This document shows positions 36,831 through 51,010 of a DNA stretch of 64,000 nt, one piece after another. Where the stretch lies: NCBI RefSeq assembly GCF_039679125.1, contig NZ_CP155551.1:2480001-2544000 (forward strand). Reading direction: 5' to 3'. This DNA is from Blastococcus sp. HT6-4. Its GTDB lineage: Bacteria > Actinomycetota > Actinomycetes > Mycobacteriales > Geodermatophilaceae. Made by a program: the position numbers and the translations under genes. The notes beneath the pieces were generated by a model that did not search any database, was not told where the DNA came from, and saw nothing but the letters and a program-made list of their open reading frames with translations. Within the stretch, counting starts at the first letter, position 1, and each line of letters starts with the position of its first letter.

Positions 36831-37676
36831 ATGTCCGTGATGCAGGCGCTGCGTGTCTTCCACCAGCGGCGCATCGCGCTGCCGATCGCCGAGGACGCGC
36901 TCGTCCTCGACGTGGGCAGCGGCGACAAGCCGTCCTGGCGCGCGGACGTGCTCCTGGACCGCTACCTCGGGGACGAGTACGCGGCCCAGCGCTCGGGACG
37001 AGGGCGGGCCCGGGTCAGCCGGCCGCTGTTCAACGCCGACGCGGTGGCGATGCCGTTCGCGGACGGCGTCTTCGACTACACGATCTGCTCGAACCTGCTC
37101 GAGCACGTGGTCGATCCGGCCGGCGTCGTCCAGGAACTGATGCGCGTGTCCCGCGCCGGCTACATCGAGGTGCCCGAGGCGTCGAGCGCCAAGATCGTCG
37201 ACTTCCCCAGCCACATCTGGTGGTGCCGGCTCGATCCGGGCACCGACCCGCCGACGCTCGTCCTGACGGCCAAGACCGCCCCGGACTTCGATCCGGAGAT
37301 CGCCAGGTACCTGCGCCGCTCGGGGCTGGAGCGCCGGGTGGAGTCCGTCCTGAACAGCCGGTTCGAGCACCGGGTGGTCATGTTGCACTGGACGGGCACG
37401 ATCCCGCACCGGGTGGAGGGCGCCGTTCCCGATTCGCTCGTCGCGCACGCCATGGCGCAGCCGCCGCACACCAAGGACCTGCAGGCGACGTTGATCCAGG
37501 TGCTGACCGACGCGGTCACCGTCCGGAAGCAGCGGCGCCTGCGCCGGCGGGCCCTGCGGTACGACGATCTGGTCCGCCCCGAGTTCCGATTGGGGAACGG
37601 CGCGCTCCTGGAGCGGCGCATCTACTCGGACAGCCGGTGGACACCCGCCGCGCCGGCCGATCAGTACGGGTCATAG
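36831..37676 (+). CDS. Class I SAM-dependent methyltransferase, envelope locus
   Basis: A 281-residue protein. SAM-binding motif VLDVGSGDKPSWRADVLLD (about residue 25), then DAVAMPFADGVFDYTICSNLLEHVVDP, the typical Methyltransf_11 pattern, and VSRAGYIEVPEASS. The C-terminal third is basic (RKQRRLRRRALRYDDL), perhaps for membrane or polymer contact. Its place at the start of a glycosyltransferase-rich region suggests methylation of a glycan or lipid. Its last 16 bases overlap the convergent methyltransferase gene. Confidence 0.85.
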   Translation: MSVMQALRVFHQRRIALPIAEDALVLDVGSGDKPSWRADVLLDRYLGDEYAAQRSGRGRARVSRPLFNADAVAMPFADGVFDYTICSNLLEHVVDPAGVVQELMRVSRAGYIEVPEASSAKIVDFPSHIWWCRLDPGTDPPTLVLTAKTAPDFDPEIARYLRRSGLERRVESVLNSRFEHRVVMLHWTGTIPHRVEGAVPDSLVAHAMAQPPHTKDLQATLIQVLTDAVTVRKQRRLRRRALRYDDLVRPEFRLGNGALLERRIYSDSRWTPAAPADQYGS

Positions 37677-38389
37677 GGAGAGTCGTGGCCGAACGCCCGC
37701 GCCACCGGGCGTAGCCGCAGCCGCAGCAGCACCTTGAGGAAGACGTTGCGCACGCACCAGGGCATCTCGCCGAGGATTCGGAGCCGGTCGGCACGCGTCG
37801 GCCGCCCCACGCGGAAGAGCGCCAGCGAACCCGCCCGCCCCTCGTAGCGGAGGTCGGCTGACGGCAGCACGTGGCGGAGGATGCCCAACGTGACCCCGAC
37901 CGAGGAGAAGCAGTCGTGCACGAGCACGGGTGCGCCATCCGGAAGGTGCACGCGCCACTTCAGATCGTCGCTGACCGTCCAGTAGTCGTGCTTTCCGTCG
38001 ATGTAGAGCAATTCGAACGGCCGGGTCCACGACGTGCGCGCTCTCGTGGAGTAGTCGCACACCAGCTCGACCATGTTCTCGACGCCGGCCATCGCGATGT
38101 GCCGCTCGAATTCCACGCGCGTCCGGCTGCCCCCGAACAACCGCCCGTCCACGAACGGGTCGATGGCGACGAGCCGGCCGCCCCGCTCCCTGATCGCCGA
38201 GGCCAGCACCACCGTCGAGCGACCGCGGTGGCTACCGATCTCGACCGCGAGAGCGCCTTCGGGAAGCGACCGGGCCTGCTGGAAGAGCATTTCGGCCTGC
38301 GCCCTCGTCAGCCAACCCGGAATGCCATCCGCGAGCGCCCAGATGTCGGCGAAGACTCCCTCGGCGGGGGCAGGAATGGATTCCGCCAC
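37661..38389 (-). CDS. Class I SAM methyltransferase (Methyltransf_24 type)
   Basis: A 242-residue protein with ALAVEIGSHRGRSTVVLASAI for SAM, RLVAIDPFVDGRLFGG, FELLYIDGKHDYWTVSDDLKWRV and VHDCFSSVGVT. This pattern (DGxHxY...DxxxW) is typical of Methyltransf_24 enzymes, often beside glycan biosynthesis genes. The C-terminal end is basic. It is divergent from the AftD-like gene (83-base gap) and overlaps the preceding convergent methyltransferase gene by 16 bases. The target is unknown. Confidence 0.85.
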   Translation of the reverse strand: MAESIPAPAEGVFADIWALADGIPGWLTRAQAEMLFQQARSLPEGALAVEIGSHRGRSTVVLASAIRERGGRLVAIDPFVDGRLFGGSRTRVEFERHIAMAGVENMVELVCDYSTRARTSWTRPFELLYIDGKHDYWTVSDDLKWRVHLPDGAPVLVHDCFSSVGVTLGILRHVLPSADLRYEGRAGSLALFRVGRPTRADRLRILGEMPWCVRNVFLKVLLRLRLRPVARAFGHDSPYDPY

Positions 38390-38416
38390 GTATCACCAAT
38401 CGGTAGACAAGGACGA

Positions 38417-38467
38417 CTAGACTCGCGCGGCACCCTACAGGTGTTCGCCGCGACCGGCCGTGGAGGG
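38417..38467 (+). promoter_or_regulatory. Promoter and ribosome site of the AftD-like gene
   Basis: TAGACT (38417-38422) is a plausible -10 box. The leader then contains GGAGGG at 38462-38467, a near-ideal Shine-Dalgarno sequence, placed six bases before an ATC codon in the correct frame rather than before an ATG or GTG. Confidence 0.5.
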
Positions 38468-38472
38468 ATCAC

Positions 38473-41400
38473 ATCAGCGCAGCCGCCGGCCGGCACCGTC
38501 GCCCGAGATCGATCCGGTCCTGGCCGTGGGGCAACGCCGCTGTCTGGCTGCTCCTGCTGCTCGGCTCGCTGCTGCAGCAGCCGGGGCGGACGACGTTCGA
38601 CACCAAGTTCGACCTGACCGCCGACCCCGCCTCGTTCCTCGGCCGGGCGTTGCACCTGTGGAACCCCGTCTCGCTCGGCGAGCTGCAGAATCAGGCCTAC
38701 GGCTATCTGTTTCCCCAGGGGCCCTTCTTCCTCGCGGCCGAACACGTCGGGGTCCCCGACTGGCTCGCCCAGCGCCTGTGGTCGGCGCTCCTGCTGGTGG
38801 CCGCCTACGAGGGGACCCGCCGGATCTGCCGCGCTCTCGGACTGGGCGGGGGCACCGCGGTGCTCGGCGGCCTCGCCTACGCCCTCGCCCCGCGTCTGCT
38901 GGGTGCGGTCGGCGTGCTCTCCGGTGAAGTGCTCCCGGAGGCCGTCCTGCCGTGGGTCGCGCTCCCACTCGTCCTCGCCCTGAACGGGCGCCTCCCGGCT
39001 CGCCGTGCCGGCTTGCTGTCCGGTGTCGCGGTGTTGTTCATGAGCGGGGTCAACGCCACCGGCACCCTCGCCGCCCTGCCCGTGGCCTTCCTCCTGGCCG
39101 CCAGCCGCATCCGGACCCGCGGTGGCGCCGCCCTCCTGGGCTGGTGGGCGCTCGGGACAGGCCTCGCGTGCGCCTGGTGGCTCGGTCCCCTCCTGCTCCT
39201 GGGGAGATACAGCCCACCGTTCCTCGACTTCATCGAGACGGCTGCGACGACCACCTCCCCGACCGGCTGGGCGAACAGCCTGCGGGGAGCCGAGCACTGG
39301 GTCGCCTACCACCGCATCGACGGGGAAGGCTGGTGGCCCGGCGCCCACACCCTCGCGACGTCGGGCTTGCTGGCCTTCCTCGCCATGTCGATCGCGACGT
39401 TCGGGCTCGTCGGTCTGCTGCACCGCCGCATGCCGCTGCGGATCCCGCTGACCGTGTCTCTCGTCCTCGGCCTGCTGCTGCTCACGATCGGCAATTCCTC
39501 CGCGGTCGGGTCGTTCGTCGACGAGCCGGTCCGGGCGCTGCTCGACGGGCCGCTGGCACCCCTGCGGAACGTGCACAAGGTGGATCCCCTGATCCGGTTG
39601 CCGATCGCGCTCGGGTTCGCCCACGCGGCAGCCCTGGCGGTCGGACGGCTCGGGCGCCTGCTGGACGAGCGCGGGGAGAGCCGGCGCCTCCCGTTGGCCC
39701 GGCGTGTCGCCGGCACCTCCCTGGTCGTCGTCCTCCTCGTCAGCGCCGCACCACTGTTCACCGGCGGTCTGCGGATGCCGGGCTGGACGGAGGTGCCCCA
39801 GGCGTGGGCCGCGCTGGCCGACTACCTCGAGGACCGGCCGGACAGCCGCGCACTGGTCGTGCCCGGCGCCGGTTTCGGGGTCCATTCGTGGGGGTGGACG
39901 ATCGACGAGCCGCTCCAGGGCCTGACCGGGACCGCCTGGGTGACCCGCAGCCAGGTACCGCTGGTCCCGGGACCGACGGCGCGCGTGCTGGACGCCGTGG
40001 AGACCCGGCTGGCGAACGGGCACGGCAGCGCCGGCCTGGCTCAGTTCCTGGGGAGGGCCGGCATCACGCACGTCGTCGTCCGCCGGGATCTCGACAGGAC
40101 CGCCGCCGAGACCGCGCCCGCGGACCGGGTCGAGCGCGCGCTCCTCGACAGCCCGGGGCTGCGCCGGGTGGCCGGGTTCGGCAGCACCGGCCTTCCGGAC
40201 CAGGACCTCATCAGCGTGTTCACCGTCACCGACGCGGCGCCGCGGGTCGCTCTGGCCGAGGCACGGGACGTGGTGACGCTGGATGGCGGACCGGAGGACG
40301 TGCTCGCCGCCCTGGACGCCGGGACGCTGTCGCCCCTCCAGCCCGTGGTCGTGCGCTCCGCCGCCGAGCCGGCCGACCTGGTGAGCGACGGCTACCGGCG
40401 GGTGGAGCGCCAGTTCGGCCGCAGCCACGACGCGGTGAGCGAGGTGATGACCGGGTCGGCGCGCTACCGGGAGGACCGGCCGACGCACGACTACCCGGGA
40501 GCCCCGACCGTCCGGCGGGCCGCCGCGGAGCATCTCGCGGTGGACGCCGTCCGGGCGTCCAGCTCGCAGGGATACGCGGACACCTTCGGGCCGGTGTTGC
40601 CCTTCCACGGGCCCGCGGCGGCCTTCGACGGCCGCCGGGGGACGGCCTGGCGGTCCGCACCGCTCGTGCCGCCGACCGGCCAGTGGCTGGCGGTCGACCT
40701 GGATCGCCCCGTGACCGGCGGGGTGCTGCAGGTGTCCTTCCTCGAGGTCGCCGGCACGGCGACCGTGCAGGAGGCCATGATCTCCTTCGACGGCGAGTCA
40801 CGGGTCTACGGTGTCCCCCGGGGCGGGCGACTGGTGGTGCCCGTGCCGGAGGTCCCCGTACGCCAGGTGCGCATCTCCGTCGTGTCGGTGGCCCCAGGAC
40901 TCGGTGCGTCGTCACCGGTCGCCATCGAAGAGGTGGAGATCCCGGGGACGGCCCCGGGGCGGACTCTGCACGTACCTCGGCCGATCGGAGCCGACAGCTC
41001 GCTGACGCTGCGCAACGAGGCACCGCGGCGACCCTGCGTGGACGTCGGATACGGCCCGCGCTGCCAGACGTCGGAGATCCGGGAGACCGAGTGGAACGGG
41101 ATCGACCGGCGGCTCGAGGTCGTCGAGGGCGGCACGTGGGAGCTCTCCGGAACCGTCACCGCCGAGGCCGGTGCGGCGGCCCTGCTCGCGCCGGTCGACG
41201 ACTCGACCGCGGCGGTGACGTCGACCTCGGTGCTGGGAGGTGATCCGTCCGTCTCCGGCGCGTTCGCCTTCGACGGGCGGCCGGAGACCCCGTGGTTGGC
41301 CGATCCGGACGACTCCAGCGCGACCCTGCACCTGGCCTGGTCCGGTGAGCGCACCCTCACCCGGCTCGCGGTCGACAAGGCGCCCGTTCCGGCGGCCGCC

Positions 41401-42546
41401 CCTCTCCGGGCACGGATCGAGTCGTCCGAAGGCGTCCGCGAGGTGGACCTCACCGACTTCGGCTTCTTCGAGCCGCTGCCGGCCCCGGGCGGGGTCTCGA
41501 TCACCTTCGACCGGTCGGCGGCGCCATCGGGGGCCGGCGCGCCGATGGGGATCGGCGAGGTCCGCGTCGACGGCCTGGAGGGCCTGCAGCACCGGCCGTC
41601 ACTGGACAGCACGACCGGTGCCGAATGCGGCCTGGGGCCCGAGATCCGGATCGATGACGTGCCCTATCCGACCGAGGTCACCGGGACGTTGCAGGACGTG
41701 GTTGGCGGACGTCCGCTGACCTGGCGTTCCTGTGACGGGCCGGTTCCGCTGGCTCCGGGCACCCACCGGGTGGTGGCCGAGGCGACGTCCCGGTTCGAGC
41801 CGCTGTCCCTCACCTGGCGTCCCGCCGGCGGGGACGCCGCCGCCACCGGCAGCGGCGACGACGGCCGCCTGCAGGTGACATCGTGGGGCGACACTCGGCG
41901 CGTGGTCTCCGTGGCCGACGGTCCTGCGGCCGTCCTGCGGATCGCCGAGAACGTGAACGACGGTTGGCGGGCGACCCTCGACGGAGACGTCCTCGAGCCG
42001 GTGGTGCTCGACGGCTGGCAGCAGGGGTACCGGATCCCGGCCGCGGTGTCCGGCGACGTCGTGCTCGAGTTCGTGCCCGACCCCTGGTACCGCGGGACGT
42101 TGCTGGCCGGCCTGGTCCTGGCCGTGGTGCTCGTGGTGCTCGCGGCGCTGTCCCCGCGCGGACGGAGACGGGGCGGCGGCGTGGCCAGCGACCTCACCTC
42201 GCACGATCGCTCACTGGGCGCCGGCACGGCCGCGGCGGTCGGCGTCGCCGCGCTGATCTCCGGCGGCGTCCCTCTGGCCGCGGGATGGGCCGCCGGCCTG
42301 GTGCCGCCGGTCCGCCGGTACGCCACCGCGCTCGGGGCCGTGGCCCTCCTGGTGAGCGGAGTCCTCGCGGCCACCTCGGCCGGGCTCGCCGTGGGGCGTC
42401 CGGGGGTCTGGGCGGACGGGACGGCCGCGCTCGGGCTCGGGCTCGTGCTGGCGCAGACCGTCCGAGTCCGGCGCCCGACCCTCGACCTCAACCTGAGCTC
42501 CACTGCGTCGTACGTTGCCCGACCGCTGACCCGGAGGTTCCGATGA
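38473..42546 (+). CDS. aftD: AftD-type alpha-(1->3)-arabinofuranosyltransferase
   Basis: A very large GT-C membrane enzyme (1357 residues from the proposed start). It adds arabinofuranose from decaprenyl-phosphoarabinose to cell-envelope arabinan, outside the membrane. N-terminal half: about ten helices, with QQPGRTTFDTKFDLTADP and QNQAYGYLFPQGPFF. Middle: GTAWRSAPL and PETPWLADPDD lie in two discoidin-like carbohydrate-binding modules. C-terminus: several more helices. The conserved N-terminal block (first helix and DTKFDLTADP) is in frame back to a stop at 38404, but contains no ATG, GTG or TTG; the first standard candidate, TTG 38650, would delete 59 residues. ATC 38473, six bases after GGAGGG, is proposed. 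The stop overlaps the next gene (ATGA). Confidence 0.9.
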   Translation: MSAAAGRHRRPRSIRSWPWGNAAVWLLLLLGSLLQQPGRTTFDTKFDLTADPASFLGRALHLWNPVSLGELQNQAYGYLFPQGPFFLAAEHVGVPDWLAQRLWSALLLVAAYEGTRRICRALGLGGGTAVLGGLAYALAPRLLGAVGVLSGEVLPEAVLPWVALPLVLALNGRLPARRAGLLSGVAVLFMSGVNATGTLAALPVAFLLAASRIRTRGGAALLGWWALGTGLACAWWLGPLLLLGRYSPPFLDFIETAATTTSPTGWANSLRGAEHWVAYHRIDGEGWWPGAHTLATSGLLAFLAMSIATFGLVGLLHRRMPLRIPLTVSLVLGLLLLTIGNSSAVGSFVDEPVRALLDGPLAPLRNVHKVDPLIRLPIALGFAHAAALAVGRLGRLLDERGESRRLPLARRVAGTSLVVVLLVSAAPLFTGGLRMPGWTEVPQAWAALADYLEDRPDSRALVVPGAGFGVHSWGWTIDEPLQGLTGTAWVTRSQVPLVPGPTARVLDAVETRLANGHGSAGLAQFLGRAGITHVVVRRDLDRTAAETAPADRVERALLDSPGLRRVAGFGSTGLPDQDLISVFTVTDAAPRVALAEARDVVTLDGGPEDVLAALDAGTLSPLQPVVVRSAAEPADLVSDGYRRVERQFGRSHDAVSEVMTGSARYREDRPTHDYPGAPTVRRAAAEHLAVDAVRASSSQGYADTFGPVLPFHGPAAAFDGRRGTAWRSAPLVPPTGQWLAVDLDRPVTGGVLQVSFLEVAGTATVQEAMISFDGESRVYGVPRGGRLVVPVPEVPVRQVRISVVSVAPGLGASSPVAIEEVEIPGTAPGRTLHVPRPIGADSSLTLRNEAPRRPCVDVGYGPRCQTSEIRETEWNGIDRRLEVVEGGTWELSGTVTAEAGAAALLAPVDDSTAAVTSTSVLGGDPSVSGAFAFDGRPETPWLADPDDSSATLHLAWSGERTLTRLAVDKAPVPAAAPLRARIESSEGVREVDLTDFGFFEPLPAPGGVSITFDRSAAPSGAGAPMGIGEVRVDGLEGLQHRPSLDSTTGAECGLGPEIRIDDVPYPTEVTGTLQDVVGGRPLTWRSCDGPVPLAPGTHRVVAEATSRFEPLSLTWRPAGGDAAATGSGDDGRLQVTSWGDTRRVVSVADGPAAVLRIAENVNDGWRATLDGDVLEPVVLDGWQQGYRIPAAVSGDVVLEFVPDPWYRGTLLAGLVLAVVLVVLAALSPRGRRRGGGVASDLTSHDRSLGAGTAAAVGVAALISGGVPLAAGWAAGLVPPVRRYATALGAVALLVSGVLAATSAGLAVGRPGVWADGTAALGLGLVLAQTVRVRRPTLDLNLSSTASYVARPLTRRFR

Positions 42547-44330
42547 GCGACGAGACCGCCCACCGGCCAGCGGGGCCGCGGGTGCGGGTCGACCCGCAGC
42601 TGCTCGCCGGCGGCATTCTGATCACTCTGCAGACGATCGTCCGTGCCGGGGTCGTCCTGCCCTCCTACTACTGGCAGGACGACTTCCACCACGTCGAGCT
42701 CGCGCGCCGGCTGGGTCTCTCGAAGGAGTTCCTTGTCCGGGACTACAGCGGCCATCTGGAGGTCGGGCAGTACTTCCTGTACTGGCTCATCGGCCGGGAC
42801 GCGGGCACCTCGTTTCTCCCCGCCGCCCTGAGCCTCCTCGTCCTGCAACTGGTGGCGTCGTGCCTGCTGCTCGGGGTGCTCCGGGAACTGTTCGGCCGCT
42901 CGCCGTGGCTCCTGCTCCCCTTCGCCGGCTACCTGTTCACCCCCCTGGCCCTCCCTGTCGCCACGTGGTGGGCCGCGGGGCTGCAGGCGCTTCCCCTCCA
43001 GATCGCCATGCTGCTGGCGCTGCTGGGCCTGGTCCGCGCGGTACGGCGGCGCTCGTGGCGGTGGGCGGCAGGGTCGGTCCTCGCGCACGCCATCGGCCTC
43101 CTGTTCTGGGAGAAGGCGCTGCTGATCCTGCCCACCCTGGTCGCCGTGCTCGTTCTCGTGGAATGGGGCCGTCAGCCCGTCCGGCAGCGGTTGCGCCTGC
43201 TCCTGCGGCAGTGGCGGTTCCTCGCTCCGCACGCCGTCGTGGCCGCTCTCTACACCGCCATCTACCTCTCGGTGGTCGACTCGGCGTCACTGCTGGGCGA
43301 GGACGCGCAGTCCGTCGCGGCGACGAGCCGCGACGTGGTGTTCCGGATGCTGCTGCCCGGCATCTTCGGGGGACCGTGGACCACCACGGGCGCCGAGAAC
43401 ACCGTCTTCCCCAACACGAGTGCCCTGCTCGCCGCGTTCTTCGCCCTGCTGTTCCTGGCCGTCGTCGGGCTCAGCGTGTGGGTGCGCGGTCCTCTCGCCC
43501 TCCAGGGCTGGCTGCTGGCCGTCGGCTACGTCGCCGTCGACATCGCCCTCATGCAGGTGGGCCGGGCCGGCTTCATCACGCTGCTGGCCCGCGATCCGCG
43601 GTACATCACCGACTCGCTGCCCGTCCTGGCGATCGCGTTCTGCGCTGCGTTCGCCGGCCCGGTCCCGGCCCGGCGGACCCCCCGCTGGTTCCGGCGGGCT
43701 GCGGGTTCGACGAGCGTCACGGTGGGAAGCACGGCAGTCCTGGTCGCGAGTTGCCTGCTGACGACCCTCCTCCTCGCGGACGGACTGCAGCACGAGCACT
43801 CGCGCAACTACGTGCACGGTGTGGTGCGGCAGCTGGACGCCAATCCCGGGGTCTCGGTCATCTCCACCGCCCTGCCGGCCACCGTCAGCATCAGCACCGA
43901 CCTGGAGGGGCTGCTGCGAGCGGTCGGCAGGGAACGGGAGTTCGACCAACCCGGAACCGACGTGCGGATGTTCGACGCGCTGGCGAACCTGCGCTCGATC
44001 ACCGTGATCCAGCCGACCCTGGCAGCGTCCGGCCCGGTCCAGGACTGCGGCTGGCGGATCGAGGGCACGTGGCAGTCGCTCGGCACCCTGCCACCCACCT
44101 CCCGCCGCCCGCAGGTGCTCCGCGTCGGCTACGTGACGGGGCAGCCGGCGACCCTGCACCTGACCGTCGGACAGGACAGGCAGGCCGTGGCCGTGCCCGC
44201 GGGCGTCGGCCATGTCACCTTCGTGGTCACCGGACAGGAGGGACGGGTGCGGGCCCGCGTGTCCGATGTCGCCTCCGGCGGGATCTGCGCCAGCGACGTG
44301 GTCGCCGGCACACCATGGCCTGCCGACTGA
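42543..44330 (+). CDS. GT-C-like polytopic membrane protein
   Basis: A 595-residue protein with about ten to eleven hydrophobic helices followed by a C-terminal extracytoplasmic domain of about 190 residues. The first outer loop has YYWQDDFHHVELA, a position where GT-C glycosyltransferases carry catalytic acidic residues. A loop near residue 270 contains FGGPWTTTGAENTVFPNTS. The fold and the four-base overlap with the AftD gene suggest a partner glycosyltransferase using a polyprenyl-phosphate sugar. The C-terminal domain (DCGWRIEGTWQSLGTLPP onward) is beta-rich, possibly sugar-binding. I do not recognise a named family. Confidence 0.8.
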   Translation: MSDETAHRPAGPRVRVDPQLLAGGILITLQTIVRAGVVLPSYYWQDDFHHVELARRLGLSKEFLVRDYSGHLEVGQYFLYWLIGRDAGTSFLPAALSLLVLQLVASCLLLGVLRELFGRSPWLLLPFAGYLFTPLALPVATWWAAGLQALPLQIAMLLALLGLVRAVRRRSWRWAAGSVLAHAIGLLFWEKALLILPTLVAVLVLVEWGRQPVRQRLRLLLRQWRFLAPHAVVAALYTAIYLSVVDSASLLGEDAQSVAATSRDVVFRMLLPGIFGGPWTTTGAENTVFPNTSALLAAFFALLFLAVVGLSVWVRGPLALQGWLLAVGYVAVDIALMQVGRAGFITLLARDPRYITDSLPVLAIAFCAAFAGPVPARRTPRWFRRAAGSTSVTVGSTAVLVASCLLTTLLLADGLQHEHSRNYVHGVVRQLDANPGVSVISTALPATVSISTDLEGLLRAVGREREFDQPGTDVRMFDALANLRSITVIQPTLAASGPVQDCGWRIEGTWQSLGTLPPTSRRPQVLRVGYVTGQPATLHLTVGQDRQAVAVPAGVGHVTFVVTGQEGRVRARVSDVASGGICASDVVAGTPWPAD

Positions 44331-44627
44331 TCGCATCGCACCCCGTCTCGCGGCGAGGACGGCCCACAGGCGCTGATGCCGGCGCCCGTACCGGTGCCCG
44401 CGCTGGCGCACCGGGGTAGCGCCGGTTTCACGCCGGACGTGGCCGCGCCCGCGCTACCGACCGCGCCGGTCCACGCGTCGCCGATGCGCCACACCGGCGC
44501 CGGCCCCGGGTCTGGGCGCCGGACGCCGGCCGGGCAGGGTGCGGGGACCGGTTCAGCGCCGGTGGGTCGCCGACCGCGCCCGCGGGCGCGGATGGACCCG
44601 ATCGGACGACCGGGCAGACAGGTCCGA
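44331..44627. other. Gap between convergent envelope genes
   Basis: A 297-base region without a supported gene. CCGGTGC and GCACCGG (44391-44414) form a seven-base stem that may act as terminator of the AftD operon. Codon bias of all open frames here is poor. Confidence 0.4.
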
Positions 44628-45569
44628 TCAGGCTGCGCCGCGACGGCGGTCGGTCCGGCCCCGCAGGAGGAGCACCACCCCGACGACCAGGAGCACCAGT
44701 CCGAGACCGGCCATCAGGAGCGGCAGCGTCCGCTGGATCAGGGTGATCTGACCGCGCGTCTCCTCGGCCCGCTCCACGCCGGCGGCGACGGTCTCGTCGG
44801 TGCCGCTGAAGGTGCCGGCGAGGATGGTCGCCCCCGTCGTGCCGTCCGGTCCACGAAGGACCGTGTTCGGCGTCTCCTTCGCGGTCACGACGACCCCGCT
44901 GGTGGGTTCCACCCACACGGTGCGCTGGTTGCTGTACACGACCTCCGCCGGCACGGTGCCCGCCTCGGGGTCACCGACCAGCGCGCCGGGAACGTCGGTC
45001 TCCCGGATGACTGTCTCGGGCACCGTCGTGACGAACTTGTAGACCTCCAGGCCCTGGATCTCCTCGACACCCTCGAAGCGGGCCGGGAAGCTCTGGCCGG
45101 TGGTCGGGTTGAACAGGTCGTAGTCGCGCTGCTCGGTGCCGAACGGGAACGTGAGGGTGAGGCCCTCCACGTCCTTGTCCCGGTCGTAGTCCACCTGGTC
45201 GACGTCGCAGGCCACGGCGACGGCGTCGGTCCTGTCCAGGCACACCCGGTACGTGGAGGCGTTCATCAGTTGGCCGTCGCTGTCGGTCATGACCGAGCCG
45301 AAGTTCCAGACCGCGATGTCCTCCCCCGCCGCCTCCGACGTGGGATCGCCCTGCACCCGCTGCTGCACCTCGGCATCGAGCCCACGCAGCTGACGCATCT
45401 CGCCCAGGTCGAAGAAGCTGACGTCACTGCCGACCGCGGTCGGTTCCGCGGTCTGGTCCAGCGGCAACTTGACCATCGTCGGCGCCAGCACCAGCCCCAC
45501 CATGAAGGCTCCCACGAGCAGGAACGCTCCCAGCCCCAGCAAGCCCAACCCGACGGCGCGTCCTCGCAT
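44628..45569 (-). CDS. DUF3068 (PorA-family) envelope protein
   Basis: A 313-residue protein with a transmembrane helix at each end (GLGLLGLGAFLLVGAFMVG and LPLLMAGLGLVLLVVGVVLLL), so the about 260-residue middle is extracytoplasmic. The middle has motifs of the DUF3068 family (CLDRTDAV, DVDQVDYDRDKDVEGLTLTFPFGTEQRDY in part, VVYSNQRTVWVEPTSGVVV). Mycobacterial Rv0227c belongs to this family and is linked to envelope biogenesis; the role is not defined. Only one or two cysteines are seen. GGAGGAG lies ten bases before the ATG. A good promoter lies about 55 bases upstream. Confidence 0.88.
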   Translation of the reverse strand: MRGRAVGLGLLGLGAFLLVGAFMVGLVLAPTMVKLPLDQTAEPTAVGSDVSFFDLGEMRQLRGLDAEVQQRVQGDPTSEAAGEDIAVWNFGSVMTDSDGQLMNASTYRVCLDRTDAVAVACDVDQVDYDRDKDVEGLTLTFPFGTEQRDYDLFNPTTGQSFPARFEGVEEIQGLEVYKFVTTVPETVIRETDVPGALVGDPEAGTVPAEVVYSNQRTVWVEPTSGVVVTAKETPNTVLRGPDGTTGATILAGTFSGTDETVAAGVERAEETRGQITLIQRTLPLLMAGLGLVLLVVGVVLLLRGRTDRRRGAA

Positions 45570-45624
45570 GCGGATGGCTCCTCCTGTGTCGGCGCGACGG
45601 CCTCGCTGCTGTCGCGGCCCGGTC

Positions 45625-45652
45625 ACCCTACTGGCGAGTAGCCGAAAACCAA
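45625..45652 (-). promoter_or_regulatory. Promoter of the DUF3068 gene
   Basis: On the minus strand TTGGTT is followed after 16 bases by TAGGGT, in an AT-richer island about 55 bases upstream of the ATG. This is the best -35/-10 pair seen in the window. Confidence 0.6.
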
Positions 45653-45840
45653 ACAGCGGCCGATACGAACCCGTACCAGCCTGGTGCGCTTTCCCGCATC
45701 GAGCCCCCCACTCCCCTGCCGTCGGGTCACCCGAACCGGCGAATCGAGACGGTAACCGGGCGTACCACGACCGGTACCGCTCCGTACTGGGGCGCTGACC
45801 GTGCGTGATCGAACGGTCGCCGTGGCCATTTCGTGCCGAT
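45653..45840. other. Region upstream of the DUF3068 promoter
   Basis: About 190 bases without a gene. The word GTACC or its near form occurs four times between about 45689 and 45797, with CGGTAACCG and CCGGTACCG among them. It may hold regulator sites for DUF3068 or simply terminate the methyltransferase gene; neither can be shown. Confidence 0.35.
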
Positions 45841-46566
45841 TCAACGGCGACGCATCACGATGACGAGATTCCAGGAGACGACCTCGCGCAGCAGCGGGAC
45901 GGCGACGATCCACCGCGCCCACCACGGGTGGTAGCGGGGGAAGGTGGCGACCACCTCGACGTCGGGGCAGGATCGCGCCCAGCGCAGCGCCGCGCCGACC
46001 GACACGGGGAACAGTGACTCCCCGAACCGGTTCTTCGGCTCGCGGCCCTCCCGCCGCCGGTAGCGCCGTCGCGCCCGGTGGCCGCCGAGGTAGTGCCACG
46101 GAGCGGTCTCGTGCCCGCCCCAGGGCGACCACCAGGGGGTGAACGACAGGAACACCGTGCCTCCGGGCCTGGTCACGCGCACCATCTCGGCCGTCATGGT
46201 CCACGGCGAGGCGACGTGCTCGAGCACGTTCGACGAGTAGCAGACGTCCACCGCCGCGGTCCGGACCGGCAGCGCTTCGCCGCTCCCCCGCACCGTGCCG
46301 GGCTCCGGCTCCCCCCGGGCGACGAGCTCGCCGGCGTCGGGCTCGAGGCCCACGTAGCGCGCGCCGGCCGCCCGGAAGGCCTCGGCGAAGTAGCCGGGCC
46401 CGCCCCCGACGTCGAGCAGCAGGGCCCCGCTCAGGGGCGCGTGCTCCGCGAGCTGCCGGGCGGAGTCCGCGGCCAGCACCCCGTAGAACAGGTCGGGTTC
46501 GGGCTGTTCCCGCAGGAATGCCCGGAACAGCGTGATCGACCGCGACAGGGTCGCAGAGCGTGCCAT
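45841..46566 (-). CDS. SAM-dependent methyltransferase (Rv0224c-like)
   Basis: A 241-residue class I methyltransferase: LLLDVGGGPGYFAEAFRAAGA for SAM, VRGSGEALPVRTAAVDVCYSS, NVLEHVASPWTMTAEMVRVTRPGGTVFLSFTPWWSPWGG in overlapping pieces, and a Trp-rich C-terminal part (FPRYHPWWARWIVAVPLL) likely to lie against the membrane. Gene order with a divergent GT4 glycosyltransferase, a polytopic protein and DUF3068 mirrors mycobacterial Rv0224c to Rv0227c. It probably methylates a lipid or glycan precursor. Confidence 0.87.
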   Translation of the reverse strand: MARSATLSRSITLFRAFLREQPEPDLFYGVLAADSARQLAEHAPLSGALLLDVGGGPGYFAEAFRAAGARYVGLEPDAGELVARGEPEPGTVRGSGEALPVRTAAVDVCYSSNVLEHVASPWTMTAEMVRVTRPGGTVFLSFTPWWSPWGGHETAPWHYLGGHRARRRYRRREGREPKNRFGESLFPVSVGAALRWARSCPDVEVVATFPRYHPWWARWIVAVPLLREVVSWNLVIVMRRR

Positions 46567-46623
46567 TCTTCGGGACCGTACCTTTCGATGGAAAGAACTG
46601 CTGGCGGTCTTGTTACCCGACGG

Positions 46624-46629
46624 TAGTCT
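46624..46629 (+). promoter_or_regulatory. -10 box before the GT4 gene, probable leaderless transcript
   Basis: TAGTCT is followed by six bases and then the GTG start codon; no ribosome site fits between them. Identical hexamer as before ethR. Confidence 0.45.
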
Positions 46630-46635
46630 CGCGCG

Positions 46636-48006
46636 GTGACTTCTCGATCAACGGAGATCGACGTCCTCTTCGTGAACTGGCGGGACGCCAGTCATCCCGA
46701 AGGCGGCGGCTCCGAACGCTACGTCCACCGGATCGCCGAAGGGCTTGCGGCCGGCGGGCTGCGCGTCCGGCTGTTCTGCGCCGCCCACGACCGGGCCCCG
46801 GCCGAGGAGCGGGTCAACGGCGTCGCGGTGGTGCACCGCGGCGGACGCCTGACGGTCTACGCGCGGGCCCTCCTGCACGTGGCGTGGCACCGGCCCGCGA
46901 TCGTCGTCGACGTCCAGAACGGCCTGCCCTTCGGCAGCACCCTGGTCGCGCGAGGTCCGGTGGTCAACGTCGTGCACCACGTGCACCGGGAGCAGTGGCC
47001 GATCGTGTTCGGCCGGGCCGGCGGGGCCGTCGGTTGGTGGCTGGAGTCGGTCCTCGCCCCCCGTCTGTACCGGCGCAGCCGGTACGTGACCGTCTCCGGG
47101 GCCACGGCCACGGAGCTGACCGCCCTCGGTGTGGCGGCCGACCGGATCACCGTCGTCCCGAACGGCGTGGAGCCGGCACCCGCGGTGCGCGTCGTGCCCG
47201 ACGAGCAGCCGCGCCTGGTGGTCCTCGGCCGGCTGGTGCCGCACAAGCGGGTCGAGCACGCCATCGAGGTGGTCGCTCGGCTGCAGGACCGGTGGCCCGG
47301 ACTGCGGCTCGCCGTCATCGGCGAGGGCTGGTGGCAGGACGAGCTGCGGTCGTGCGTCGAGCGGCTCGGCGTCGGCGACCTCGTGGAGTTCCACGGCTTT
47401 CTCGACGAGCAGGCCAAGCACGAGGAGCTGGCCCGGGCCTGGGTGCACCTGTGCCCGTCGGTGAAGGAGGGCTGGGGACTGGTCGTGACCGAGGCGGGGG
47501 CGCACCGCGTGCCGACGGTCGGTTACCGGTCGGCCGGCGGTCTGCGCGAATCGGTCGTCGACGGACGGACCGGGGTGCTGGTCGACGACCTCGACGAGAT
47601 GGTGGAAGCAGTCGAGCAGCTGCTCACCGACGGGGCGGCCCGCCGGCTCATGGGCGAGGCCGCCGCCCGTCACGCGGCGGGGTACAGCTGGGCTGCGAGC
47701 GTCCGGGGGTTCGCCCGGGCGCTGGCCCGGGCGGCCGAGGGATCAGCCCCGGTTGCCGTACTCCAGCACCTGGATCTGCTCGCTGCTCCCCGTCTCGACG
47801 GTGCTGTCGGGGTCCATGGCGGCCTCGAGGCCGAGGACCGCGGCGACGGCGAGACCGGACCCGCCACCCAGGGCCAGCATGACGGCGATGAGGGTCTTCA
47901 TGGCGCGACTCTTTTCCGTGGAGGGCGGCGACGGAGCGCAACGGTAGAGCCCGACGTCGTGATCCACAACACCGCGCCCACGCCCACCCCCAGCGCGACG
48001 GCATGA
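46636..48006 (+). CDS. GT4-family glycosyltransferase (Rv0225-like) with antisense C-terminal run-on
   Basis: A 456-residue frame. GT-B fold: HPEGGGSERYVHRIAEGLAAGG near the N-terminus, VTVSGATATELTALGV, then LVVLGRLVPHKRVEHAIEVV, GFLDEQAKHEELARAWVHLCPSVKEGWGLVVTEAGAHRVPTVGY in parts, including the EX7E-like nucleotide-sugar site. Residues after about 372 (past ARALARAAEG) are unlike glycosyltransferases and correspond to the antisense of a DUF2613 gene and part of the neighbouring membrane protein gene; many third positions there become A or T. The true functional protein is probably about 370 residues with a run-on tail. GTG start, likely leaderless. Confidence 0.85.
   Translation: MTSRSTEIDVLFVNWRDASHPEGGGSERYVHRIAEGLAAGGLRVRLFCAAHDRAPAEERVNGVAVVHRGGRLTVYARALLHVAWHRPAIVVDVQNGLPFGSTLVARGPVVNVVHHVHREQWPIVFGRAGGAVGWWLESVLAPRLYRRSRYVTVSGATATELTALGVAADRITVVPNGVEPAPAVRVVPDEQPRLVVLGRLVPHKRVEHAIEVVARLQDRWPGLRLAVIGEGWWQDELRSCVERLGVGDLVEFHGFLDEQAKHEELARAWVHLCPSVKEGWGLVVTEAGAHRVPTVGYRSAGGLRESVVDGRTGVLVDDLDEMVEAVEQLLTDGAARRLMGEAAARHAAGYSWAASVRGFARALARAAEGSAPVAVLQHLDLLAAPRLDGAVGVHGGLEAEDRGDGETGPATQGQHDGDEGLHGATLFRGGRRRSATVEPDVVIHNTAPTPTPSATA
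47743..47901 (-). CDS. DUF2613-like small membrane protein
   Basis: A 52-residue protein: one N-terminal hydrophobic helix (LIAVMLALGGGSGLAVAAVLGL) and a short outer tail ending in LEYGNRG. The EYGxR ending is typical of DUF2613 proteins in mycolate-containing and related actinobacteria, where the gene lies close to AftD. All third codon positions but one are G or C, far better than the opposite strand. The ATG overlaps the stop of the upstream membrane protein (ATGA). It lies entirely antisense to the tail of the GT4 frame. Confidence 0.8.
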   Translation of the reverse strand: MKTLIAVMLALGGGSGLAVAAVLGLEAAMDPDSTVETGSSEQIQVLEYGNRG

Positions 48007-49640
48007 GCGCCCACCACGGCGACGACGCGCACCGCCGACGGCGAAGGCCCAGGTCGGGCCCCGGGAACCCGGTACAGCCGCAGGTCGGCGCCGTCGACGA
48101 TCAGGGGCAGCGCGGCCACGCCCTCGGGCACGGGCCGGCCCGGGGTGCCCCGCTCGACGAGCACCCAGCCGATGCCGAGATCGGCCAGTGCCGCCGGGTC
48201 GTCACCAGCCGGCGCCACCGCACGGGCGCGCAGGTCCTCCCCGGCCACCGTCCGGCCCCCGACGACCAGGTCGTCGTCGGCGACCACCGGCCGGGACAGC
48301 CAGCGCGCGGCGGGGTCGAGCTGCGGGCGGTCGTCGTTCCAGTCGAACGCCCGGTAGGCGCCGAACGGCAGCACCAGCACGTCGCCGGTGCCGTCGTCGG
48401 TCAGCGCCTCGCGGACCCGGTCCCAGTCGGCCGGATAGCGCACCGGCTGCAGCCGTCCGCCGGCACCCCAGACCAGGTCGGGCATCGCGATCAGCGGCAG
48501 CGCGAGCAGCCCGGCCACCAGGGCACCCCCGAGCACCGGCCCCCCGTCGCGCCGCGCGACCGCCGACACCAGCCGGCGGGTGCCCAGCCCGGCGCCCACG
48601 GCGAGCGGCAGCGCCCACCAGGCGATCCACTTCTGCCCGTCCCGCAGCAGCCCGGCTCCCGGGACCGTCTCCACGGCCCACTCGAGCAGGCCCGCGGCGC
48701 CCGGGACGGCGCCCACCCCGGCGAGCAGCACACCGGCACCACCGAGCACCAGCAGCCCACGGGCCGGCCGGCCGAACGGACGGCGACCGGCCCAGCCGGC
48801 GACGGCCACCGCGACCAGCAGGACGGTCAGCAGCGGGACCAGCACGGACGTCCGGCTGCCGGGAACGGCGCCTTCGTTCCAGATGCCCCCGGTGCCCAGC
48901 AGCGCCAGCAGGGTGCCGCCCCAGTTCTCCGGCCTCGCGGCGAAGGCGTCCACCCCCACCGCGTCGGACGCCCCACCGGCCGGGTGCAGGGCTCCGGCCA
49001 CGATCCAGGGCAGGGAGAGCAGCAGCAGCCCGCCGGCGGCCACCGGCACACGCTGCCGCCCGACGAGCGCGAGCACGACACCGCCGGCCAGCAGGGAGCC
49101 GGTGGGGCTCAGCGCCGCCGGCACGCAGGTGAGCAGCAGCCGCGGAAGGGACCCGCGCATCCCGGCGCGCAGGCGGAGCGACTCCCGCGCGATCCAGGGC
49201 AGGGCGGCGTACGCGACCAGCAGCGTCCAGTGCCCCATCAGCAGCCGCTCGGCCAGGTAGGGGCTCCAGCCGTACACCAGCCCGGCGACCAACCCCGCCG
49301 CCCCGCGCCGCCCGTCCGGGCCGGGTGGCACGAGCCTGGCCGCACCGAGCACCGCGAAGGAGACGGTCGCCAGCAGGACCGCCTTCTGCACGAGATCCCC
49401 CGGCACGACGCCGGTGAGCACGCCCATCACCGCATCGACCGGCACCGCCCGCGGCAGCGAGCCGCCGAGCCCCAGGGCATCCAGGTCGAGCTCCTGCCGG
49501 GGCACGAACACCATGTCCCGGAGCAGGACGTACCCGGGGCCCAGCGCCGGGCCGGTCACCAGCAGTGCCACGACCAGCGCGAGCAGCCTCGCCGGCCACG
49601 GCGAGGCGTCGGCGCGCGTCCATCGCTGGTCCACCTGCAC
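47898..49640 (-). CDS. Polytopic membrane protein (Rv0226c-like)
   Basis: A 580-residue protein with about 11-13 hydrophobic helices. GYVLLRDMVFVPRQELDLDALGLGG lies in the first outer loop; YGWSPYLAERLLMGHWTLLVAYAALPW and NWGGTLLALLGTGGIWNEGAVPGS resemble GT-C type proteins. The size agrees with Rv0226c (about 576). A C-terminal soluble segment (YPADWDRVREALTDDGTGDVLVLPFGAYRAFDWNDDRPQ in pieces) precedes the last helix. GTG start. It is probably a membrane glycosyltransferase or export factor for the same envelope polymer as AftD. It overlaps the DUF2613 gene by four bases. Confidence 0.85.
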   Translation of the reverse strand: MQVDQRWTRADASPWPARLLALVVALLVTGPALGPGYVLLRDMVFVPRQELDLDALGLGGSLPRAVPVDAVMGVLTGVVPGDLVQKAVLLATVSFAVLGAARLVPPGPDGRRGAAGLVAGLVYGWSPYLAERLLMGHWTLLVAYAALPWIARESLRLRAGMRGSLPRLLLTCVPAALSPTGSLLAGGVVLALVGRQRVPVAAGGLLLLSLPWIVAGALHPAGGASDAVGVDAFAARPENWGGTLLALLGTGGIWNEGAVPGSRTSVLVPLLTVLLVAVAVAGWAGRRPFGRPARGLLVLGGAGVLLAGVGAVPGAAGLLEWAVETVPGAGLLRDGQKWIAWWALPLAVGAGLGTRRLVSAVARRDGGPVLGGALVAGLLALPLIAMPDLVWGAGGRLQPVRYPADWDRVREALTDDGTGDVLVLPFGAYRAFDWNDDRPQLDPAARWLSRPVVADDDLVVGGRTVAGEDLRARAVAPAGDDPAALADLGIGWVLVERGTPGRPVPEGVAALPLIVDGADLRLYRVPGARPGPSPSAVRVVAVVGAHAVALGVGVGAVLWITTSGSTVALRRRPPRKRVAP

Positions 49641-49699
49641 CCCATCCCGTCCGGAGGTCCCCGCGCCGGCCTCTCGGCGGACGTGCGCAGACTAAGGGG

Positions 49700-51010
49700 G
49701 TGAGCCCACTGCGATCGAGCACCCGCCGACGGCGGCGCAAGGGTGCCGGGCAGGACTCACGACGGCTGGTGGGGGCCACCGCCCTGGTGTCCGTGGCCTT
49801 CCTCGGCACGAGCGCCCTCGCGTACGTCTTCACCGTGCTGGCGGCCAGGCTGCTGGCGCCGGCCGCGTACGGGGAGCTCGCCGCGCTGCTCGGACTGCTG
49901 CTGGTGGGGTCCGTGCCCGGGACCGGCGTCCGCACCGCGATCGCGCTCCACCTCGGGGGCAGGTCCGGGGACCGCGAGGCGACCGCGCGGCTGCACGCGG
50001 TGATGCTCTCGGTCGGCCTGGGCGTGAGCCTGCTCGCTCTGCTGCTCGTGCCGGTCGTGGTCACGCTCCTGCACCTGCCCGCCGCCACGGCCGCGATCTG
50101 GCTGGCGCTGCTGCTCCTCCCGCAGACGCTGGGCGAGGGATACCAGGGGATGCTGCAGGGTGCGGCCCGCTACCGCCGGCTGGCTTGCGTCACGGTCGTC
50201 TTCGGCGTCTCAAAGCTGGTCGGCGGTGTCACCGGGCTGCTCGTCGGCGGCAGCTCCGCGTCCGCCTTGCTGGGCATGGCCGTCGGCGCGTCGCTCGGTG
50301 CACTGGGCGGCTGGCTCGGCGCCGGCCGGCCGGAGCTCCTCGGGCGGCTCCGGGCACCCCTGGGTGCGGCCCTGCGCGCGGCCGGCGCGCTGCTGGGCTT
50401 CGTGGTGCTGCTCAACCTCGACCTGCTCTTCGCCCGCCACCACCTGCCGGCCGCCGCCGCGGGCGAGTACGCGGTCGCCGCGATCATCACCAAGATCGCC
50501 TTCTGGCTGCCCCAGGGGGTGGGGGTGGTCCTGCTGCCGCGGCTGGCCCATGCCGCCGGCCGCCACGAGACGCTGCCGACCGCCCTGGCGGCGGTCGCGA
50601 CGCTGGGTGCCGCCCTCACCCTGAGCACCGCGGCCCTCGGCGACTCGGCGCTCCCGCTGATCGGCGGCTCGGCCTACGGCGGCACGCTCGGGGCGGCCAC
50701 CTGGCTGTTCGCCGCGCTGGGCACCCTGCTCGCCCTGGCACAGCTGCTGCTCTTCTCGGGCATCGCGACCGCCGACCGGCTGGCCACGGCGGCGGTCTGG
50801 ACCGCGGCCGGCGTGGAGGCCGTCGTCGTCTCGGTCCTGGCGGCCACCGACCGGCTGTCGCCCCTCTCGCTCGTGGGCACCGCGTCCCTCACCGCGACGG
50901 CCCTGGTCACCATGGGCCTGGTCCGGCTGGCCCGCACGCGCGCCCGCACCCGTGCCGGCGAGCGCCCGGTCGTGCCGGCCGCCGAGGTGGTTCCCGCGCC
51001 CGGATCGTGA
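49700..51010 (+). CDS. Polysaccharide flippase-like membrane protein (MOP superfamily)
   Basis: A 436-residue protein with about 12 helices after a basic N-terminus (SSTRRRRRKG). ALAYVFTVLAARLLAPAAYGELAALLGLLLVG is the characteristic first-helix pair of Wzx/PST flippases (LLxPxxYGxxA). LNLDLLFARHHLPAAAAGEYAVAAIITKIAFWLP continues the family pattern. It would move lipid-linked sugars across the membrane. GTG start behind AAGGGG. It is divergent from the Rv0226c-like gene and lies at the end of the envelope block. Confidence 0.87.
   Translation: MSPLRSSTRRRRRKGAGQDSRRLVGATALVSVAFLGTSALAYVFTVLAARLLAPAAYGELAALLGLLLVGSVPGTGVRTAIALHLGGRSGDREATARLHAVMLSVGLGVSLLALLLVPVVVTLLHLPAATAAIWLALLLLPQTLGEGYQGMLQGAARYRRLACVTVVFGVSKLVGGVTGLLVGGSSASALLGMAVGASLGALGGWLGAGRPELLGRLRAPLGAALRAAGALLGFVVLLNLDLLFARHHLPAAAAGEYAVAAIITKIAFWLPQGVGVVLLPRLAHAAGRHETLPTALAAVATLGAALTLSTAALGDSALPLIGGSAYGGTLGAATWLFAALGTLLALAQLLLFSGIATADRLATAAVWTAAGVEAVVVSVLAATDRLSPLSLVGTASLTATALVTMGLVRLARTRARTRAGERPVVPAAEVVPAPGS

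Follow-up and report, generated by a model that had tools for sequence, protein, structure and literature searches.

The stretch analysed here (the window) comprises 64,000 nucleotides from Blastococcus sp. HT6-4 (Geodermatophilaceae), bases 2480001-2544000 of a 4.30 Mb genome that is assembled in one contig and rated 100% complete. Between positions 36831 and 51010 of the window lies a group of envelope-type genes which had been predicted, from the sequence by itself, to form an arabinan-type locus resembling the mycobacterial AftD region. We scanned the window proteins with Pfam and NCBIfam and found AftD, an overlapping GT-C protein, PgfA (DUF3068), an MtrP-like methyltransferase, a GT4 glycosyltransferase, MmpA, a flippase-like protein and two more methyltransferases where the original prediction had placed them (Table 1). 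A DUF2613 protein, which it had also listed, was not found in the locus: six-frame segments of at least 38 amino acids were read in five intergenic gaps, and a Pfam scan of eight of these segments and one open reading frame (ORF) gave no match.

Table 1. Genes of the HT6-4 locus, with their positions in the window and the evidence behind each assignment
Feature	Position	Strand	Evidence
Methyltransferase (Methyltransf_11), accessory	36831..37676	+	PF08241, 35.5 bits
Methyltransferase (Methyltransf_24), accessory	37661..38389	-	PF13578, 73 bits
AftD: GT-C glycosyltransferase, C-terminal carbohydrate-binding-like part	38473..42546	+	PF11847, 602 bits, E 1.3e-180, cut-off 26
Orphan GT-C protein, predicted glycosyltransferase, C-terminal beta domain	42543..44330	+	Predicted structure
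PgfA/LmcA (DUF3068), periplasmic lipid-binding family	44628..45626	-	NF053601, 263 bits (cut-off 160); PF11271, 242 bits
MtrP/Rv0224c-like methyltransferase	45841..46566	-	PF08241, 62 bits
GT4 glycosyltransferase, Rv0225-like	46636..48006	+	PF00534, 112.5 bits
MmpA (Rv0226c/NCgl2761 family), predicted GT-C fold	47898..49640	-	NF053599, 527.3 bits, cut-off 210
Flippase-like membrane protein	49565..51010	+	Weak match in a relative; conserved position

Several of these families have been studied in Corynebacterium glutamicum and mycobacteria; papers are cited here by their PubMed Central accessions. MmpA, MtrP and TmaT are tied to acetylated trehalose corynomycolate, MmpA being required for its acetylation and export in C. 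glutamicum, and LmcA is tied to lipomannan and lipoarabinomannan (LM/LAM) (PMC8698533). PgfA serves trehalose monomycolate transport and works with MmpL3 in mycobacteria (PMC9678360), and LmcA forms a barrel that may bind lipid (PMC8972800). Rv0226c (MmpA) and Rv0228 (TmaT) are reported to be essential in Mycobacterium tuberculosis, and the exact function of MtrP is described as undefined (PMC8698533, PMC9558356); a review describes the fatty-acid acceptor of TmaT as unique among enzymes of that class and points to uncertain aspects of the model (PMC9558356). The occurrence of the DUF3068 family across actinobacteria has already been published (PMC9678360), and searches of an open-licence library gave no description of the locus outside Corynebacterineae. 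Actinoplanes AtsA, which shares 13% identity with TmaT (PMC11064477), was not used here.

Predicted GT-C folds of MmpA and the orphan protein

The model of MmpA (predicted local distance difference test, pLDDT, 94.2) finds its best solved match in AftD (Foldseek E 3.6e-8; Z 25.8, root-mean-square deviation (rmsd) 4.0 over 477 residues), followed by PglB, AftA, ArnT and other GT-C enzymes. No PDB sequence match is found with the MmpA profile at E≤0.01; its link to GT-C enzymes is made by the fold comparison and by a profile comparison with the AftD N-terminus (99.7% probability, E 2.2e-25). Relative to mycobacterial AftD (PDB: 6w98), with which HT6-4 AftD shares the PF11847 family, MmpA has the same predicted GT-C fold but not the large C-terminal region. 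The orphan protein at 42543-44330 shows in Pfam only a GtrII match of 15.9 bits, below the cut-off of 30, and its profile has no PDB sequence match at E≤0.1; its connection to GT-C enzymes is made through fold comparison. Structure matching (pLDDT 88.9; Foldseek E 4e-5; best Z 18.5, rmsd 5.5 over 382 residues) gives it a predicted GT-C fold, in agreement with its earlier description as GT-C-like.

The predicted structures of both proteins combine the GT-C fold with an acidic residue in the first outer loop. In MmpA this is Asp42, which together with Arg132 and Arg333 is invariant in 46/46 copies, those of the mycolate family included, and in the orphan protein an Asp46-Asp47 pair is present in 39/39. 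The invariant Asp of MmpA speaks for an enzyme, and we read both proteins, from their models, as putative glycosyltransferases. MmpA has been described as having partial homology to the AftD N-terminus, with an anchor role suggested for it, and is said to be without homology outside corynebacteria and mycobacteria (PMC8698533); the latter statement is not borne out by the sequence comparisons below.

A conserved locus outside the mycolate family

Named genomes were scanned with an MtrP alignment, which gave at least 578 relatives; the best 80 loci were kept, and this set is not a census and, being the best matches to an Aeromicrobium-like MtrP, favours close relatives of that protein. Gene content was counted within 10 kb either side of MtrP with profiles and thresholds set for this analysis, and 20 stretches from material already gathered served as controls. 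Because iteration of the MmpA profile brought in AftD as well, new profiles were built from selected members, and every ORF was assigned to the profile that it matched best. With the AftD threshold at 600 bits, two loci (L051 of G307 and L063 of G353) score below it and are counted as being without AftD. TmaT-like genes were called, with no reciprocal test, from their position, from PF01757 matches in four scanned proteins and from scores of 118-295 bits to a copy from family f2, the mycolate family (345-450 within f2).

Fifty-eight of the loci are full length, none of them from a named mycolate genus, and the other 22 (<20.6 kb) are left outside the counts on 58. Within the full-length loci AftD is found in 56, GT4 in 53, MmpA in 51, PgfA in 48, a TmaT-like gene in 45, the orphan GT-C gene in 40 and the flippase-like gene in 36; MtrP, MmpA and TmaT stand together in 43/58, and all six of MtrP, MmpA, TmaT, PgfA, GT4 and AftD in 35/58. 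Across all 80 (again the best of at least 578) the corresponding numbers are AftD 73, GT4 72, MmpA 64, PgfA 57, TmaT-like 55, flippase-like 46 and orphan GT-C 45. No control stretch exceeds any threshold (0/20), and this, with the recurrence in most of the 58 loci, puts the grouping far from chance. The genera concerned include Nocardioides, Kribbella, Mumia, Aeromicrobium, Jiangella, Nonomuraea, Streptosporangium, Actinomadura, Lentzea and Pedococcus, and a Micromonospora locus (L163) belongs to the shorter ones. Repeated orphan GT-C genes occur in the Nocardioides loci L139 and L146, and two adjoining AftD-like genes in a Blastococcus locus (L165:11180-20626). An idea that TmaT is a mycolate-specific addition was dropped, TmaT-like genes being present in most of the non-mycolate loci.

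A fixed sample of 396 genomes from the phylum, 381 of them outside the own family of HT6-4 and the mycolate family, was searched in parallel. MmpA is matched in 53 genomes (27 over cut-off), PgfA in 64 (35), AftD in 60 (58) and Emb in 19 (16). Co-occurrence was counted with MmpA matches of E above 1e-20 excluded and with AftD, PgfA and Emb over their cut-offs: 12 of the 381 genomes have MmpA, and of these 11 have PgfA, 11 AftD and none Emb, a count that ignores relatedness, as do the Fisher tests made on it, which treat genomes as unrelated. AftD is present in 43/381, with Emb over cut-off in 0/43.

Full-length Pks13 is found in 7/7 tested f2 genomes and in 0/25 others, HT6-4 among them; two of the 25 exceed the Pks13 cut-off, but only when the modules of large polyketide synthases are added together. 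Emb is over cut-off in 14/14 f2 genomes, in HT6-4 and in one further genome of the 396, and it is on these Pks13 and Emb counts that f2 is treated as the mycolate family. Mycolic acids are not known from Jiangella, Lentzea, Actinomadura and Blastococcus. They are absent, according to published data, in Propionibacteriales, Streptosporangiaceae, Micromonosporaceae, Intrasporangiaceae and Haloechinothrix (PMC6113628). The Pks13 search covered the sample genomes. The suggestion that the module is not tied to mycolates is thus upheld, by a cluster widespread outside f2 where full-length Pks13 is missing from all 25 genomes tested. HT6-4 itself has neither of the marks of a mycolate-export locus that were sought: its best Pks13 match is partial (248 bits; cut-off 2100), and TmaT has no match at E≤1e-3 in a search that covered the window, not the rest of the genome. 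With no full-length Pks13 in HT6-4, a trehalose corynomycolate substrate for its MmpA is therefore not expected.

The published order of C. glutamicum cg3161-cg3168 is AftD, a hypothetical protein, TmaT, two membrane proteins, a putative glycosyltransferase, a hypothetical protein and MtrP (PMC7775120); by this order we take the two membrane proteins, cg3164 and cg3165, as LmcA and MmpA. That region and M. tuberculosis Rv0224c-Rv0228, with AftD nearby, have AftD, PgfA/LmcA, MmpA, GT4 and the MtrP-like gene in common with HT6-4, whereas the HT6-4 locus is without TmaT and has the flippase-like gene, the orphan GT-C gene and two methyltransferases in addition, in a genome without full-length Pks13, UbiA or DprE1. 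Three f2 loci (L064, L066 and L073) share with Kribbella, Mumia, Nocardioides and Micromonospora an arrangement in which AftD and PgfA are co-oriented with TmaT reversed between them, and the flippase-like, MmpA, GT4 and MtrP genes alternate in the same way in f2 (L071), Kribbella and Mumia; Nonomuraea and Lentzea are among the rearranged loci. A quick, unrooted tree of 96 MmpA proteins places the mycolate family on one branch, the own family on another and the rest largely by family, as expected of descent. It is plausible that the module is older than the mycomembrane, as originally proposed, an order of origin that is not visible in the unrooted MmpA tree.

The arabinan question

On an arabinan or lipoarabinomannan-like reading, AftD and the other GT-C proteins would transfer arabinofuranose from decaprenyl-phosphoarabinose onto a lipoglycan or onto cell-wall galactan, as in mycobacteria. 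Membership of the AftD family is consistent with this, and HT6-4 has one Emb, with Glf and GlfT2 within the same 60 kb. Arabinose was found in all Blastococcus strains of one study except DSM 44270 (PMC9686282), in Geodermatophilus no clear arabinose pattern was seen (PMC5742155), and the requirement for LmcA in LM/LAM formation in C. glutamicum would also fit. Supply of the donor is another matter. The prediction was to fall if decaprenyl-phosphoarabinose synthesis genes and envelope arabinose were both absent, and, as to the genes, a query for UbiA, the decaprenylphosphoryl-5-phosphoribose (DPPR) synthase, found no match in the complete HT6-4 genome at E≤0.001, and a DprE1 query found only generic partial matches there, so that an arabinosyltransferase AftD would be without the two genes for its donor.

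Both genes are common in related genomes, UbiA being present in 6/6 and DprE1 in 5/6 of the other own-family genomes tested: G415, G406, G404 and two Blastococcus have both, and a genus mate (G407) has UbiA only. When the UbiA and DprE1 sites of Blastococcus (L187-L188) and G415 are aligned to HT6-4, the aligned ends lie 73 bases apart on one segment (L003) and 13 bases apart on another (L004), and the simplest reading of these alignments is that UbiA and DprE1 were lost in the HT6-4 lineage. The closed-up sites are at L003:6712-6785 and L004:12180-12193, with Emb, Glf and GlfT2 retained. A PF04030 match at 2198979 was rejected as DprE1 at 24% identity to a Blastococcus DprE1; by its motif it is a candidate alditol oxidase. 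Emb is patchy within the own family, and the HT6-4 Emb could use a donor other than decaprenyl-phosphoarabinose. The row of genes that contains it (L003:7638-13984) also encodes a GT2, a GtrA-like protein and a flavin oxidoreductase, and next to Emb and the galactan genes is an amidase gene whose product has eight LGFP repeats (L003:2168-4804).

Outside HT6-4 the cluster is found apart from arabinan genes as well. UbiA is absent in 20/36 genomes tested, many with the cluster: these include HT6-4, G214, G085, G139 and other sample genomes, and named genomes of Kribbella, Jiangella, Nocardioides, Nonomuraea, Actinomadura and Micromonospora. In G214, G085 and G139 the TmaT, MtrP, MmpA, PgfA, GT4 and AftD genes all lie in one 20-kb stretch, and searches of these genomes found no full-length Pks13, no Emb, no UbiA and no full-length DprE1; the MtrP of G214 shares 100% identity with its counterpart in a named Aeromicrobium. 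Together with the lack of Emb over cut-off in the AftD-positive genomes outside the two families, these findings do not sustain the arabinan-type label, although the Emb, Glf and GlfT2 of HT6-4 speak the opposite way, and we regard an arabinan or LAM-like product as unlikely. Judged by gene content, the locus has no fixed tie to either mycolates or arabinan.

A proposed module for a lipid-linked envelope glycan

We consider it probable, if far from certain, that the locus represents an actinobacterial module, inherited for the most part vertically, for the synthesis and export of a lipid-linked envelope glycan, and that it needs neither mycolic acids nor Emb nor decaprenyl-phosphoarabinose. 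The best reading of the product is a methylated and often acetylated glycan, and mycolate bacteria would use the module too. Since the locus occurs in much the same order without mycolic acids, its original job was probably another one, such as making a decorated cell-surface sugar polymer. The proposal draws on gene content, conserved order, the predicted GT-C folds and the invariant first-loop Asp, and on occurrence without full-length Pks13, Emb, UbiA and DprE1. In this scheme the cytoplasmic GT4 protein would start or extend the glycan on a lipid, MtrP would methylate it and the flippase-like protein would carry it across the membrane. On the outside, sugars from polyprenyl-phosphate donors would be added by AftD and MmpA, and by the orphan GT-C protein in loci that have one, PgfA may bind the lipid-anchored product and pass it on, and in most of the named relatives, though not in the HT6-4 window, a TmaT-like acyltransferase would acetylate it. 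In mycolate bacteria, which have the locus too, loss of its genes disturbs the export of acetylated trehalose mycolates (MmpA, MtrP, TmaT) or LM/LAM maturation (LmcA/PgfA). The three-component pentofuranose systems (PMC11127046) are similar in general scheme (a lipid-phosphate sugar, a flippase and a GT-C enzyme with a carbohydrate-binding module), but no PPPRS/UbiA-type enzyme is seen in the HT6-4 locus, which has GT4, methyltransferase and PgfA genes in addition.

Several observations weigh against this proposal. Mutants of C. glutamicum in mmpA, mtrP and tmaT lack acetylated trehalose monocorynomycolate (TMCM) and have normal LM/LAM (PMC8698533), and cell-free extracts acetylate TMCM (PMC9558356); the substrate in that organism may be the mycolate itself. 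Likeness of fold leaves the activity of MmpA and the orphan protein as a prediction, and the flippase is identified weakly. The module is also not uniform, with MmpA in 19/96 own-family genomes (8/19 of the own genus) and no TmaT in the window. TmaT is likewise absent from 13/58 named loci, three Blastococcus loci (L159, L164 and L165) keep the flippase-like, GT4, MtrP, PgfA and AftD genes with MmpA absent in 3/3, and in Frankia (L128) and Protofrankia (L154) MtrP is the only one of these genes.

The absence of MmpA from part of the own family, although 3/3 Blastococcus loci retain the other genes, the split in C. glutamicum between LmcA (LM/LAM) and MmpA, MtrP and TmaT (trehalose lipids), and a family of large genomes in the phylum sample (f5) with PgfA in 7/11, AftD in 3/11 and MmpA in 0/11 would suit genes that are neighbours for regulation or by descent and serve different envelope products. 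Similar order and orientation across many families and the company that MmpA keeps with PgfA and AftD (each in 11 of 12 genomes) argue for one pathway, and we think such a division of functions quite improbable. That the locus instead prepares acylated glycolipids (trehalose esters or others) and moves them outward with an MMPL transporter, with MmpA as an inactive GT-C anchor or carrier, accords with nine MMPL matches in the HT6-4 genome, the partnership of PgfA with MmpL3 and the anchor role proposed by the authors of the MmpA study, but is very unlikely given that the invariant Asp and two Arg suggest catalysis, that GT4, AftD and a second GT-C protein share the locus, and that MMPL presence says little because 12/14 control genomes of all kinds have such proteins.

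The remaining details of the HT6-4 genes concern gene starts, overlaps and relatives. AftD carries an F5_F8_type_C match at 27.4 bits, just below cut-off. Its frame is open from 38407 and the first canonical in-frame start is a TTG at 38650, with the first helix encoded upstream of it; no ATG, GTG or TTG lies in the frame between the upstream stop and that codon (38404-38650), and an ATC at 38473 is preceded by GGAGG at good spacing. The gene may have an unusual start codon, or the sequence may contain an error. The orphan GT-C gene starts within the AftD stop codon (a 4-base overlap), and the GT4 and MmpA frames overlap tail to tail by 109 bases (47898-48006). The MtrP-like protein, identified by position and sequence identity, is 50-60% identical to mycolate-family copies and 67% to an Aeromicrobium-like copy; the GT4 protein is 47-55% identical to many cluster copies. 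The flippase-like protein of the window has no Pfam match of its own, a relative matches Polysacc_synt at 17.4 bits (cut-off 28.2), and the true start probably lies inside the frame listed in Table 1, as in Blastococcus. The methyltransferases at 36831 and 37661 look accessory by their occurrence at E≤1e-15, the former having no relative in the 80 named loci and 34 other stretches and the latter relatives in 5/114, one being a Blastococcus locus. Cluster genes are matched at the DNA level in Blastococcus L159, L164 and L165, and the flanks in L159 (a major facilitator superfamily (MFS) transporter and a flavin adenine dinucleotide (FAD) oxidase, both 83% identity) and L164 (the MFS transporter, 81%, and a cupin, 87%).

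A stronger form of the lipid-linked glycan proposal, which we advance tentatively as possible rather than probable, is that mycolate export is not the original role of TmaT, MtrP, MmpA and PgfA, and that with AftD, GT4, the flippase-like protein and the orphan GT-C protein they make and export an undescribed methylated, acetylated, lipid-linked glycan common to much of Actinomycetota. The trehalose-mycolate defects of Corynebacterium and Mycobacterium would then reflect a later use or an indirect effect, and MmpA would be a glycosyltransferase and not a transporter. Because these genes form an ordered locus in organisms that have no mycolic acids, the function that they share can be studied apart from the mycolate and in harmless hosts. 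An AftD annotation by itself does not predict arabinan.

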